DNA of 64,000 nucleotides. Source: Opitutaceae bacterium (lineage in GTDB: Bacteria; Verrucomicrobiota; Verrucomicrobiia; Opitutales; Opitutaceae). The notes beneath the pieces are model-generated. The model saw only the letters and a program-made list of their open reading frames with translations. It was not told the DNA's origin and did no database searches. Below, piece by piece: positions 34,162 to 52,773 of this stretch (within the stretch, counting starts at the first letter, position 1; each line of letters starts with the position of its first letter). The translations under genes were made by a program, and so were the position numbers. The stretch lies in contig JACMRG010000028.1 in assembly GCA_014376585.1 (NCBI GenBank), positions 1-64,000 on the forward strand, read 5' to 3'.

Positions 34162-34536
34162 GGGAACTGATTTTATCTGACGGTTGGAGTGTGTGCGGCC
34201 GGGTGGACGGAGTCCTACGGTCGCACCTCTGATGCGCCCGGGTGCACATCGCGGATGCCCACCGTCTGCGGGTGTTAGCGCGAGCCCAAGTCAGCATTAG
34301 GCCGGCGCAATACTTCACCCCTCGCTTGCTTTCCCGCTAAAAGGGGAAGTGGCCTCCCGGCCCGTTCCCGCGATCGCATGGCCGTCGCCCAAGCCAGAAC
34401 CATGCAGGGGCACCCCCGGGAATCAGAACTGTCTGCAAAATATCAAACGGTGAACGGCGTCACGCTCGTTTCGATCACGCGTCCGCGCTCCGGAGATTAG
34501 TCTCTCCGCTCTCAGCTCTCAACTGCGTCGTTTCGC
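34162..34536. other. Intergenic stretch of 375 bases
   Basis: No reading frame with coding character and no RNA gene seen. It holds promoter space for the fasciclin gene and, near its end at 34501-34527, a CTCTCAGCTCTCAACT-type short-period repeat like those around the S23 gene at 49.4 kb. Confidence 0.6.
34501..34527. repeat. CTCTCAACT-type short-period repeat
   Basis: TCTCTCCGCTCTCAGCTCTC then AACTGCG; about three units of seven to eight bases. It lies ten bases before the 3' end of the ThuA gene. Related stretches occur at 37077, 40871, 49400 and 49810. Confidence 0.65.
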
Positions 34537-37076: not shown

Positions 37077-37106
37077 GATCTCTCAACTCTTAGCTCTCGA
37101 GTTCTC
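37077..37106. repeat. CTCTCAACT-type short-period repeat
   Basis: CGATCTCTCAACTCTTAGCT then CTCGAGTTCTCC, between the converging pectate lyase and phospholipase genes. Confidence 0.6.
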
Positions 37107-40870: not shown

Positions 40871-40900
40871 CTTTCAACTTTCATCCTTCAACTTTCAACT
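40871..40900. repeat. CTTTCAACT-type short-period repeat
   Basis: CTTTCAACTTTCATCCTTCA then ACTTTCAACT; four units of about seven bases, ten bases before the ATG of the next gene. Confidence 0.7.
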
Positions 40901-45924: not shown

Positions 45925-45963
45925 GTATCCGTGTCCATCCGTGTAATCCGTGGTTAAAAAACC
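45925..45963. repeat. ATCCGTGT-type short-period repeat before the second binding protein
   Basis: GTATCCGTGTCCATCCGTGT, then AATCCGTGGTTAAAAAACCC. It lies between the first and second livK-like genes. Confidence 0.8.
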
Positions 45964-47130: not shown

Positions 47131-48266
47131 CGTCCCCCCTCGCACCGCGCCGCCTCATCCGCGGCGCGGTTTTGCTTTCGGTCTTCGCACTCGTTGCCCG
47201 TGCCGCCGGGCCCATCAAGCTCGGCGAGGTCGCCTCGCTCACCGGCAAAGAAGCCGCCTTCGGCCAGCAAGCCCACCGCGGCATCCAGATGGCCATCGAC
47301 GAGGTCAACGCTCGCGGCGGCGTCCTCGGCCGTCCACTTGCCCTCGTTTCCGAAGACAACCAGTCCAAGCCCGGCGACTCCGCCACCATCGCCAAGAAAC
47401 TCCTCAGCCGCGAAAAGGTCGTCGCCCTCCTTTGCACCGGCACGTCGTCGAACTGCCTGGAAGTCGCGCCCCTCGCCCAGTCCGCCCGCATCCCGCTCAT
47501 CGGCACCACCGCGACCGCGCCCGAGGTCACCGAGAAGCGCGACTACGTTTTCCGTTCCTGCTTCATCGATCCGTTTCAAGGCGCCGTCCTCGCCAAGTTC
47601 GCCACCAGCACGCTCGAGGCGAAACGCGTCGCCCTGCTGACCTCCGTTTCCGCCTCCTACAGCGTCGGTCTCTCCAAAGTCTTCCGCGAAAAGTTCGCCG
47701 CCCTCGGCGGTGAAATCTCCGCCGACCAAAAATATTCCGAAGGCGACAAAGATTTCCGCGCCCAACTCACCGCCATCAAAGCCGCCAAAGTGGATGCCAT
47801 CGCCGTCACCGGATTTTACACCGAGGCCGCACTCATCTGTAAACAGGCTCGCGATCTCGGCCTCACGATTCCGATTTTCGGCGGCGACGGCTGGGAAGCC
47901 CCCGAGCTCATCGAAATCGGCGGCACCGCCGTCAACGGCACCTACTACGCGAGCCACTACTCTTCCGAAAGCACCGCGCCTGAGGTCAGCGAGTTCGTGA
48001 AAAAATACCGCGCGCGGTTCAATGGCGACACCCCCGACTCCATGGCCCCGCTCGCCTACGACGCCACCTTCATCATCGCGGAAGCCATCACCCGCGCCGG
48101 CTCCACCGAGGGCCCGAAACTCCGCGACGCGCTCGCCGCCACCAAAAATTTTCCCGGTGTCACCGGTCGCACCACCATCGACCCGCAGCGCAACGCCTCC
48201 AAGCCCGCCGTCATGCTCGCCGTGAAAAATGGCAAAGCCACTTACGTCGCCACCATCGAACCATGA
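47127..48266 (+). CDS. livK: ABC binding protein, paralogue 3
   Basis: The 379-residue protein has a signal peptide (AVLLSVFALVARAAGP). Motifs are IKLGEVASLTGKEAAFGQQ, IDEVNARGGVLGRPLALVSE and FGGDGWEAPELIEIGGTAVN. Overlapping start and stop codons join it to paralogues 2 and 4. It is closest to paralogue 4 in the GDGWEAP stretch, in keeping with stepwise tandem duplication. Confidence 0.92.
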   Translation: MTSPLAPRRLIRGAVLLSVFALVARAAGPIKLGEVASLTGKEAAFGQQAHRGIQMAIDEVNARGGVLGRPLALVSEDNQSKPGDSATIAKKLLSREKVVALLCTGTSSNCLEVAPLAQSARIPLIGTTATAPEVTEKRDYVFRSCFIDPFQGAVLAKFATSTLEAKRVALLTSVSASYSVGLSKVFREKFAALGGEISADQKYSEGDKDFRAQLTAIKAAKVDAIAVTGFYTEAALICKQARDLGLTIPIFGGDGWEAPELIEIGGTAVNGTYYASHYSSESTAPEVSEFVKKYRARFNGDTPDSMAPLAYDATFIIAEAITRAGSTEGPKLRDALAATKNFPGVTGRTTIDPQRNASKPAVMLAVKNGKATYVATIEP

Positions 48267-49384
48267 CCCTCCGCCCCCCCGCCCTTCTCTCGCTCGCGTT
48301 TCTCGCGCTCGCCGCCCACGCCGCCGATCCCATCAAGCTCGGCCACTACGGCTCGCTCACCGGTAAAGACGGCGCCTTCGGTGCCGCCACCCGCAAGGGC
48401 GTCATCCTCGCCATCGATGAAATCAACGGCAAGGGCGGTGTCCTCGGCCGACCGCTCCAATACCTCGTCGAAGACACCCAGTCCAAAGCCGGCGAAGCCG
48501 TCACCGCGGTAAAAAAACTCATCTCGCGGGACAAGGTCGTCGCCGTCATCGGCGCCAACGCCTCCGCCACCTCCCTCGAAGCCGCGCCCATTTGCCAAAA
48601 CGCCAAAATTCCCATGATGGCGATTTCCTCGACCAACCCGCGCGTCACCGAGGTCGGCGACTACATCTTCCGCATCTGCTTCATCGATCCGTTCCAAGGC
48701 GCCGTCCTCTCCAAATTCGCCGCCACCTCCCTCAAAGCCAAGCGCGTCGCCCTCATCACCGCCGTCAACTCGCCCTACAGCATGGGCCTCTCCGCCGTCA
48801 TGCGCCGGGACTTCACCGCCCGCGGCGGCGAGATCGTCGCCGAACAAAAATACACCGAAGGCGAAAAAGATTTCCGCGCCCAGCTTACCGCCATCCGCCC
48901 CCTCAGGCCCGACGTCATCGCCATCACCGGCTTCTACACCGAGGTCGCCCTCATGTGCAAACAAGCCCGCGACCTCGGCATTACCGTCCCCTTCATCGGC
49001 GGCGACGGTTGGGAAGCCCCGCAATTGATCGAGCTCGGCGGCAAGGCGGTCGAAGGCACCTACTACTCCACCTACTTCTCCGCCGAGAATGACGCCCCCG
49101 AAGTCCGCTCCTTCGTTGATCGCTACAGGGCCATGTGGAACAACGAAGTCCCCGAAGCCGTCGCCGCCCTCGGCTACGACGCCGTCTATCTGATCGCCGC
49201 CGCCATGACGAAAGCCGGCACCACCGACAGCGCCCCCCTCCGCGCCGCCATCGCCGCAACCAAGGATTTCCCCGGCGTCACCGGTCGCACCACCATCGAC
49301 GAAAAGCGCAACAGCGCCAAAGCCGCCGTCATGCTCACGGTAAAAAACGGCCGCTCCCAGTTCTTCGAGGCCGTGACTCCGTGA
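48263..49384 (+). CDS. livK: ABC binding protein, paralogue 4
   Basis: The 373-residue protein has a signal peptide (ALLSLAFLALAAHAADP). Motifs are IKLGHYGSLTGKDGAFGAA, IDEINGKGGVLGRPLQYLVE and IGGDGWEAPQLIELGGKAVE. It ends the run of binding proteins. The following junction, where livH would be expected at once, holds an inverted repeat pair enclosing the S23-type gene. Confidence 0.92.
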   Translation: MTLRPPALLSLAFLALAAHAADPIKLGHYGSLTGKDGAFGAATRKGVILAIDEINGKGGVLGRPLQYLVEDTQSKAGEAVTAVKKLISRDKVVAVIGANASATSLEAAPICQNAKIPMMAISSTNPRVTEVGDYIFRICFIDPFQGAVLSKFAATSLKAKRVALITAVNSPYSMGLSAVMRRDFTARGGEIVAEQKYTEGEKDFRAQLTAIRPLRPDVIAITGFYTEVALMCKQARDLGITVPFIGGDGWEAPQLIELGGKAVEGTYYSTYFSAENDAPEVRSFVDRYRAMWNNEVPEAVAALGYDAVYLIAAAMTKAGTTDSAPLRAAIAATKDFPGVTGRTTIDEKRNSAKAAVMLTVKNGRSQFFEAVTP

Positions 49385-49399
49385 GCGCGCAACGCGCTG

Positions 49400-49428
49400 G
49401 CTGAGAGTTGAGTGCTGAGAGTTGAGAG
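49400..49428. repeat. Left arm of the inverted repeat around the S23 gene
   Basis: GCTGAGAGTTGAGTGCTGAG then AGTTGAGAG. It matches the complement of 49810-49838 at 27 of 29 positions. It is built of seven-base GAGAGTT-like units. Confidence 0.88.
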
Positions 49429-49443
49429 ACCCAAACCTGCCGA

Positions 49444-49794
49444 ATGTTTAACTTTGAGAAACTTGAAGTCTGGCAGAAATCCGTCGCCTATGCGGGCGCG
49501 GTTTACCGCGCGACCAAGACATTCCCAAAAGAAGAACAGTTCGGCCTGACCAACCAGATCCGCCGTGCCGCCGCTTCCATCGCTTCGAATATAGCCGAGG
49601 GCTCCGCCCGGCCCCCGGCCGACTACGCCCGATTTCTTGGCTATGCGGTTGGCTCGCTCTTTGAGGTCGTGACTCAGGCCACCATCGCCCGCAACGAGGC
49701 CTACATCACCGCCGAAATTTACCAGCAACTCTATATCGACGCCGAAGAAATCAGCCGAATGCTCAGCGGACTCCGCCGCTCCCTCGGTGAGTGA
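49444..49794 (+). CDS. S23/four-helix-bundle protein (TIGR02436 family)
   Basis: The product has 116 residues with the family hallmarks: NFEKLEVWQKSVAYAGAVY at the start, IRRAAASIASNIAEGSARP, FLGYAVGSLFEVVTQATIA and a helical C-terminus. Relatives were first found encoded by intervening sequences of 23S rRNA genes; free-standing copies are common in environmental bacteria and have no proven function. The fold is shared with Avd of diversity-generating retroelements. Here the gene is inserted in a transporter operon between the fourth binding protein and livH, inside an inverted pair of heptamer-like repeats. Its stop overlaps a GTG in frame with livH. Confidence 0.9.
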   Translation: MFNFEKLEVWQKSVAYAGAVYRATKTFPKEEQFGLTNQIRRAAASIASNIAEGSARPPADYARFLGYAVGSLFEVVTQATIARNEAYITAEIYQQLYIDAEEISRMLSGLRRSLGE

Positions 49795-49809
49795 CAACAC
49801 AGTCCGAAT

Positions 49810-49838
49810 CTCTCAACTCTCAGCCCTCAACTCTCAAC
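49810..49838. repeat. Right arm of the inverted repeat around the S23 gene
   Basis: CTCTCAACTCTCAGCCCTCA then ACTCTCAAC. In the livH frame it would be read as SLNSQPSTLN if translation began at GTG 49791. Confidence 0.88.
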
Positions 49839-49844
49839 TTCCCC

Positions 49845-50735
49845 TTGTCCGAATTCCTCCAGCAGCTTCTAAACGGCCTGTCCCTCGGCGCCATCTACGC
49901 GCTCATCGCGCTCGGCTACACGATGGTTTACGGCGTTCTCCGGTTCATTAATTTCGCGCACTCCGACGTGTTCATGGTCGGCTCGTTTATCGGCTACTAC
50001 GCCGGCAAGCACGTCCCGGAGCGCACCTATTGGGGCGGCCTTCTGGTCCTAGTCGTCGCCATGCTCGGCTGCGCTCTGCTGGGCATGCTCATCGAGCGCC
50101 TTTGCTACCGCCGCCTCCGCGGCTCCGCCACGCTCAACGTCCTTATCACCGCCATCGGCGTTTCCCTGCTCCTCGAGTATTCCGGCCAGGTCTTCTTCGG
50201 CGCCACGCCGCGCACGTTCCCCGACATTTTCCCTTCAACTAATTTCGCCTTCGGCAGTCTCGTCATCTCCAGCAACCAGATCCTCGTCATAGTCGTCGCC
50301 ACGCTGCTCATGGTGGCGCTGCAACTCATCGTCTATCGCACGAAAATCGGCACCGCCATGCGCGCCGTCTCGCTCAACCCGAAGGCCGCCCAGCTCGTCG
50401 GCGTGAACAACGATATCGTCATCTCCTTCACCTTCGGCCTCGGCTCCGCCCTCGCCGCCGCCGGTGGTATTCTTTACGCGATTAATTATCCGTCGATCGA
50501 TCCACTCATGGGCGTGATGCCCGGCCTCAAGGCTTTCGTGGCCGCCGTCCTCGGTGGCATCGGTAACATCCCCGGCGCCGCCCTCGGCGGCCTCCTCCTC
50601 GGCACCGTCGAGACCTTCGTCAACGGCAGCCAGTGGTCCACCTACAAGGACGCCATCGCCTTCGCGATTCTCATCGGCATCCTGCTCTTCCGCCCCGCCG
50701 GTCTCCTCGGCAAGTTCACGGTCGAAAAAGTCTGA
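49845..50735 (+). CDS. livH: Branched-chain amino-acid ABC permease LivH
   Basis: The inner-membrane permease has about eight helices. Family motifs are FLQQLLNGLSLGAIYALIAL, GYTMVYGVLRFINFAHSDVF, MRAVSLNPKAAQLVGVNND (the EAA-like loop) and FVAAVLGGIGNIPGAALGGL. The start is uncertain. TTG 49845 gives 296 residues and the usual LivH N-terminus; GTG 49791, overlapping the S23 stop, adds 18 residues encoded by the repeat. The insertion of the S23 cassette has evidently replaced the original upstream region. Partner of LivM, LivG and LivF. Confidence 0.9.
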   Translation: MSEFLQQLLNGLSLGAIYALIALGYTMVYGVLRFINFAHSDVFMVGSFIGYYAGKHVPERTYWGGLLVLVVAMLGCALLGMLIERLCYRRLRGSATLNVLITAIGVSLLLEYSGQVFFGATPRTFPDIFPSTNFAFGSLVISSNQILVIVVATLLMVALQLIVYRTKIGTAMRAVSLNPKAAQLVGVNNDIVISFTFGLGSALAAAGGILYAINYPSIDPLMGVMPGLKAFVAAVLGGIGNIPGAALGGLLLGTVETFVNGSQWSTYKDAIAFAILIGILLFRPAGLLGKFTVEKV

Positions 50736-50746
50736 GTCAGAATTTG

Positions 50747-50917
50747 AACCACGGATCACACGGATGAACACGGATCAATTCACTCGGCGTTCCCGCTCGG
50801 TCCCTTCTCCGTTCCGATCTCTGGGCCTCTATGTCTCTGCGGTTCCCACCGAGCCCAAACTCACGTCACGGCACGTTCCGCATCCGTGTCTATCCGTGTC
50901 CATCCGTGGTTAAAAAC
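50747..50917. repeat. Inverted pair of ATCCGTGT-type repeats between livH and livM
   Basis: The left arm 50747-50775 (AACCACGGATCACACGGATG and on) is the near-complement of the right arm 50881-50917 (ATCCGTGTCCATCCGTGG, then TTAAAAA). The 105 bases between hold a CTCTGGGCCTCTATGTCTCT segment, itself of short period, and no gene. It has the structure of the S23 cassette without the gene. Confidence 0.82.
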
Positions 50918-52681: not shown

Positions 52682-52773
52682 ATTTTCTATTTTTAGATTC
52701 TCGATTTCCGACTGGCCCCGCCCGCCTATGTCGAAATCGAAATCGAAAATCGAAATTCAAAAATCGAAATTCC
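52682..52773. repeat. Inverted pair of AAATCG-type short-period repeats between livG and livF
   Basis: The left arm 52682-52709 (ATTTTCTATTTTTAGATTCT and on) faces the right arm 52731-52773 (TCGAAATCGAAATCGAAAAT and on). The right arm has six to seven units of about seven bases and ends five bases before the livF ATG. The arms pair imperfectly. Confidence 0.78.

Follow-up and report, generated by a model that had tools for sequence, protein, structure and literature searches.

An S23 gene between heptamer-array arms in a liv operon, probably a resident copy of a widespread miniature mobile element

Why does a small gene of the S23 family stand inside a liv operon, between two inverted arrays of a heptamer, and does it move? 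The locus lies in a stretch of 64,000 nucleotides from an Opitutaceae genome (hereafter the window). The original prediction took it for a small non-autonomous mobile cassette of about 440 bases whose only protein is a four-helix bundle. The features concerned are the following.

48263 to 49384, plus strand: fourth livK-like gene, upstream neighbour of the S23 gene (stop codon 49382-49384)
49384 to 49398, plus strand: perfect hairpin AGCGCG-CAA-CGCGCT, directly outside the 5' arm and overlapping the livK stop
49400 to 49429, plus strand: 5' arm, about four degenerate GAGAGTT heptamers (GCTGAGAGTTGAGTGCTGAGAGTTGAGAGA)
49444 to 49794, plus strand: S23 (four-helix-bundle) gene, 116 aa, ATG to TGA, assigned by PF05635, TIGR02436 and fold
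49809 to 49839, minus strand: 3' arm, heptamer array as inverted copy
49845 to 50735, plus strand: livH, downstream neighbour of the S23 gene (TTG 49845 chosen as start from relatives)
34502 to 34521, minus strand: solo heptamer array without gene, GAGAGTT family
37080 to 37098, minus strand: solo heptamer array without gene, GAGAGTT family
40871 to 40900, minus strand: solo array without gene, of the related GAAAGTT type (CTTTCAA x 4.3)

The S23 gene is found where it was predicted, between the fourth livK-like gene and livH. Its product matches PF05635 (E=8.9e-36; 122.8 bits for a curated cut-off of 33.8) and TIGR02436 (E=1.2e-33; 117.7 bits for a cut-off of 24). The AlphaFold2 monomer (pLDDT 95) is a four-helix bundle with the fold of 2GSC (TM 0.93), the pentameric S23 protein XCC0516 of X. 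campestris. Other solved relatives of the model are 2RLD and, with the same fold, Avd of the diversity-generating retroelements (DGRs; 4DWL and 8UB7, TM about 0.8). Avd is a nucleic-acid-binding protein that acts in DGRs in a complex with a reverse transcriptase and RNA (structures 8UB7 and others). No match to RVT_1 was found in the window's genome (91.5% complete), thus the window S23 is not a DGR accessory protein. S23 proteins occur in many phyla, and we know of no function, catalytic site or recognised catalytic domain for them.

The prediction of 29-base arms matching at 27 positions was right about the inverted heptamer arms and off by one in the count: the match is 27 of 28 positions (49402-49429 against 49809-49836). 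By TRF the 5' arm has a period of 7/14 and the 3' arm one of 7, in agreement with the announced GAGAGTT units of about seven bases. The S23 start codon is 14 nt downstream of the 5' arm and the livH TTG start 5 nt beyond the 3' arm; arms and S23 together occupy the whole gap from the livK stop to the livH start. The inverted terminal repeats reach the ends of the element or stop within a few nt of them, and enclose S23 as the sole gene, with neither a transposase nor a reverse transcriptase encoded inside, as had been foreseen. The arm score of the window copy, 25.5, is exceeded by only about 0.5% of mismatched flank pairs; this control and that of random windows rule out a chance origin of the arms. 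As RNA, the 461-nt segment is predicted to fold 5.2 s.d. better than shuffles (z=-5.2), its complementary ends, the arms, pairing into a single long stem around the S23 ORF.

The gene-less repeats expected at 34501, 37077 and 40871 were recovered at the positions given above, all of the same or a related type. The window contains other short repeats as well. A separate family with a period of 10 bases (ATCCGTGTCA type) occurs in direct and inverted orientation between liv-cluster genes (45927-45952, 50745-50777 and 50881-50908). An array of AAATCGAAATTC type (52734-52772), ahead of the last liv ATPase gene, resembles the heptamer GATTTTCG of another S23 subfamily, the RTKxFALRILK type.

Are such arms a general property of S23 genes? 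By eye, short-period repeats flank all six S23 loci of the window's genome, with a different unit at each (GAGAGTT, GGAGGTG, GGCGGAC, AAATTTG, GATTGCC and GTTTCGG); by the automatic arm score, L001, L002 and L005 are clear and L003 is moderate; L004 and the decayed L006 fall below threshold. We then pooled 256 distinct S23 genes from Opitutaceae, from GTDB genomes of many phyla and from IMG/VR viral contigs. Arms (score of at least 14) are present on 73.8% of these genes and on 1.5% of 342 random windows of the same loci, bearing out the suggestion that S23 flanks would carry inverted short-period repeats more often than chance. Many of the loci are related, so that these counts are not independent. 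Of 189 arms, 156 fit a period of 7 best and 26 a period of 8 (182 together), and inverted arms of these periods are carried by the majority of S23 genes in each of the three collections. The period-8 minority includes L091, L108, L117, L121, L128, L150, L153 and L158. In the GTDB set, made up of the 80 best among more than 570 matches, 65 of 78 loci lie above the 95th percentile of mismatched pairs; its phyla include Bacteroidota, Desulfobacterota, Bacillota, Nitrospirota, Elusimicrobia and Planctomycetota. About a quarter of S23 genes are without clear arms. An assignment of these armless loci to intervening sequences (IVSs) of rRNA was rejected, since 19 such loci contain no rRNA.

The median arm is 31 nt long, the 5' arm ends 18 nt upstream of the start codon and the 3' arm begins 7 nt past the stop. 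Copies on plasmids of Cyanobacteria, Azospirillum and Gemmatimonadota mostly have the same anatomy. Perfect hairpins (stem of at least 6) stand directly outside the 5' arm in 13% of cases, against about 2% at shifted positions; examples are L331-L350 in G020, the liv-site loci and 49384-49398 in the window.

The heptamer differs between S23 genes. Arm similarity increases with S23 identity above about 50%, including pairs whose outer flanks are non-homologous (Mantel r=0.253; the best of 2000 permutations reached 0.076). A tree of 87 Opitutaceae S23 proteins was labelled with 18 heptamer classes, built by average linkage as single linkage had merged unrelated heptamers. The labels need 22 changes for a minimum of 17; label-shuffled trees need 52.2 on average, and none of 200 shuffles was as low as 22. 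The FNFEKL/liv type carries GAGAGTT, the QSFRDV type AGTAGCG, the RTKxFALRILK type GATTTTCG, the QTYRQLQVWQ type GGAGGCG and the RTFEDLIVWQKAHAW type AGGAGTC. Within the tree and the arm comparisons, every S23 lineage retains a heptamer of its own.

We compared relatives at the livK-livH junction, as the original prediction had proposed. S23 is present in 13 of 61 sampled genomes of the family and missing from this junction in many others, including G018, which belongs to the same genus, and G025, whose LivH is 88% identical. In the S23 tree a supported branch has the liv S23 genes with GAGAGTT-type arms on one of its sides. The insertion is therefore old and was lost again in some genomes, or else it travelled together with the operon. 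Shared by these 13 genomes, the window copy is an old insertion and not a recent jump; in this respect the cassette reading has to be amended. Arms at the liv site have drifted from GAGAGTT to GAAAGTT or GAGAGCC. A 5' arm fits its own 3' arm better than that of an ortholog (22.5 against 15.3, p=5e-5): by this measure, the two arms of the liv-site element change together. One liv-site copy, in G026, has a frameshifted S23 and a longer, rearranged 3' arm side, and is decaying.

Direct traces of mobility come from occupied and empty sites. Trichormus plasmid C and Nostoc linckia NIES-25 have flanks 97-99% identical around an S23 site: the empty allele reads AAAAAGTAATTAAC, and the occupied one holds a 423-bp element between two copies of GTAAT, with heptamer arms to or near both ends. 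On Nostoc plasmids a three-gene cassette, A-B-C, carries a GGGAAAA S23 element between B and C in pNsp_c and a different one (TCAGAAG/TCAGGAG) between A and B in pNsp_a; both junctions are found empty in other copies. The A-B insertion is flanked on both sides by TTCTA in L403 and L409, and by TTCTA/TTCTG in L406. The 5-bp target duplication thus comes from two plasmid sites, whose elements are related to each other. In Nostoc sp. C057 (p057_A) an unrelated small ORF lies at the A-B junction. Three further plasmid neighbourhoods give occupied/empty pairs (+444, +507 and +480 bp). In Anabaena sp. 90, S23 lies between cas6 and cas4; it is absent from a Dolichospermum that is 98.7% identical over the stretches that match, the gap itself also differing. 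In the window's own family, an intergenic region of G003 holds an S23 element that the same region of its congener G052 lacks, in an alignment too diverged to reveal a target duplication.

The clean empty sites and 5-bp duplications of the plasmids show that the gene plus its arms is a mobile unit. As read from these alleles, arms and S23 insert as a whole, tightly between neighbouring genes, and the short duplications suggest a staggered cut. For the class of elements, the predicted small mobile cassette, with short-period repeat ends and S23 as sole protein, is therefore supported, at about 430 bp: besides these two observations, it is backed by the common descent of S23 and heptamer and by arms on most S23 genes across phyla. 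Neither of the two checks suggested with the original prediction refutes it. The same data bear on the idea that arrays are born by slippage and palindrome correction, and that S23 genes insert into ready-made arrays as IVSs do into rRNA hairpins. Hairpin-templated correction could achieve long-term matching of the arms, and IVSs do occupy rRNA helices (PMC4990558). The empty sites are nevertheless without array, which rejects pre-existing arrays as targets at the plasmid sites; the arms come inside the inserted segment, and the heptamer tracks the S23 lineage rather than the site. We regard this origin as highly improbable.

S23 between cas6 and cas4 is a feature of two type I-D CRISPR loci, L400 (Anabaena sp. 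90) and L381 (Pseudanabaena galeata), where the heptamer arrays are very long and reach dozens of units on one side. Earlier work noted S23 in cas loci as an associated function (PMC3936711); the simpler explanation is insertion, which may account for the S23 genes of cas operons.

What moves the unit? GAGAGTT arrays give 165 overlapping hits in the window's genome, corresponding to at least 60 distinct places among 100 hits listed. All 13 genomes with the liv S23 have such arrays (12 to 508 hits), for only 5 of the 48 others with 12 or more (Fisher p=1.3e-9, with kinship ignored and the arms themselves contributing a few hits each). Contrasts within genera agree: 165 in G000 against 4 in G018, and 34 in G054 against 0 in G006. 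The association of AGTAGCG arrays with their cognate S23 is weaker (p=5e-4) and has clear exceptions, e.g. G020. The reversed-pattern control works for AGTAGCG and is uninformative for GAGAGTT, because this pattern reads the same backwards. Across genomes, array counts follow the number of S23 genes (rho 0.46, p=2e-4); they track neither Y1 transposases (rho 0.21, p=0.10) nor reverse transcriptases (rho -0.08). A reverse transcriptase of the same genome was rejected as the mover: there is no correlation, and it is absent from the window's genome and from G003, the array-richest. A Y1 transposase was rejected likewise, the correlation being weak and the enzyme absent from G017 and G023 despite their arrays (26 and 12 hits).

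S23 might still be mere cargo, the arms being the ends of a MITE-like element moved wholly by a transposase acting in trans. Target duplications and inverted ends do resemble ordinary transposition, and gene-less arm pairs occur: G020 has ten close array pairs, all convergent, which form palindromes without a gene; their arms consist of about four heptamers, and their loops measure tens of nt. Arrays are also abundant in some genomes without cognate S23: G004 has 137 GAGAGTT hits and no S23 at all, G020 has 114 AGTAGCG hits and no matching S23 among those seen, and G044 is likewise array-rich. In such genomes S23 may not be needed, or may have been lost later. Against the cargo explanation, the same passenger family is found inside such arms in many phyla, array counts track the number of S23 genes and not those of the two enzymes, and a lineage-specific heptamer would not be retained by an irrelevant passenger. 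We therefore consider it unlikely.

The position of the elements raises another possibility, that S23 is a post-transcriptional regulator whose binding targets are the heptamer hairpins of its own mRNA and the solo arms of other transcripts, the repeats being its regulon and mobility incidental. The outer edges of the elements hug the neighbouring ORFs (median about 10 nt). Neighbour genes are co-directional at 96 of 120 elements, with 73 of these elements in sense and 23 in antisense. The arms are polar: on the coding strand, the 5' arm is rich in G and poor in C. Most solo repeats are single arms, and solo arms occur just ahead of start codons; a translational role has been proposed for the TAACTGA repeats of Beggiatoaceae (PMC4679880). 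Arms at both ends of the gene would however be superfluous for simple autoregulation, and clean whole-unit insertions with patchy occupancy point to a mobile element first. As the primary role of S23, regulation seems very unlikely to us. The two are not mutually exclusive: a mobile unit could regulate too.

We think it likely that the S23 locus of the window belongs, as a resident copy, to a widespread class of miniature mobile elements, in which S23 recognises its own arms and thereby prompts copying or insertion, a host or trans-acting enzyme doing the cutting and joining. An element of this class would be roughly 0.4-0.5 kb long, with S23 as its only gene and inverted arms of about 31 nt, each made of about four units of a heptamer, or sometimes an octamer, that is specific to the lineage. 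From the pairing of heptamer and lineage, the co-evolution of arms, the dispersed cognate arms and the homology with Avd, we infer that each S23 protein is specific for the heptamer of its own arms, in DNA or as a folded RNA hairpin. This recognition would lead to copying or insertion of the arm-bounded unit, cutting and joining being presumably performed by a host or trans-acting enzyme. Solo arms would have arisen as by-products that lack the gene, or would be passengers. The liv operon probably tolerates its old copy thanks to RNA folding, since the cassette can form a hairpin in the transcript. A bolder version, which we put forward tentatively and rather doubt, has S23 rings reading the arms in single-stranded nucleic acid, with about four to five heptamers per arm for five subunits. 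This would drive a transposase-free transposition, from which the unexplained heptamer repeats of many bacterial genomes would stem, and rRNA IVSs would be its rRNA-resident members. That each subunit reads one heptamer is speculation.

Several known systems resemble this element in part. The IVSs of 23S rRNA with an S23p ORF, in Coxiella and Leptospira, have been described as selfish and horizontally acquired (PMC4990558). They share with it the S23 family, a similar size (428-444 nt in Coxiella) and stem-forming ends around the ORF, and the predicted stem of the window element would be compatible with excision by RNase III as in IVSs. They are its nearest kin; it is nevertheless not one of them, as it lies between livK and livH and not inside an rRNA helix. 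The S23 elements described here differ further by their heptamer-array arms, lineage-specific units, target duplications at the plasmid sites and scattered gene-less arms. With REP/RAYT systems and MITEs they share inverted ends, and one encoding copy for many gene-less palindromic ones; their arms, in contrast, are tandem heptamers. RAYT is a catalytic Y1 transposase and S23 a four-helix bundle without recognised catalytic domain; inside the window element there is S23 only, and no Y1 transposase between the palindromes.

Heptamer repeats have been noted without explanation in cyanobacteria, Beggiatoaceae, Xanthomonas and Bacteroidetes. Those described include TAACTGA in Beggiatoaceae, Cyanobacteria and Bacteroidetes, with no evident mechanism of transfer (PMC4679880), and GGGAATC in Xanthomonas and GGGGAYT in Nostoc (PMC4692102). 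Like the arrays studied here, these repeats and the STRRs of cyanobacteria are heptamer arrays, mostly intergenic. The GGGAATC arrays of Xanthomonas, mostly of four units and with about 70 convergent pairs per genome (PMC4692102), have the design of the gene-less convergent pairs of G020, and X. campestris encodes S23. The main text of neither paper mentions S23. In the open-access full-text literature, no link between S23 and heptamers was found, in line with the expectation that it would be new.

If this explanation is true, S23 genes and heptamer repeats would be two sides of a single mobile element, one coding and the other non-coding, and both the function of S23 and the puzzle of the heptamers would become directly testable. 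The IVSs of rRNA would gain free-living relatives, and the family would provide an unusually minimal mobile unit, made of one small protein without recognisable catalytic domain and of repeat ends.
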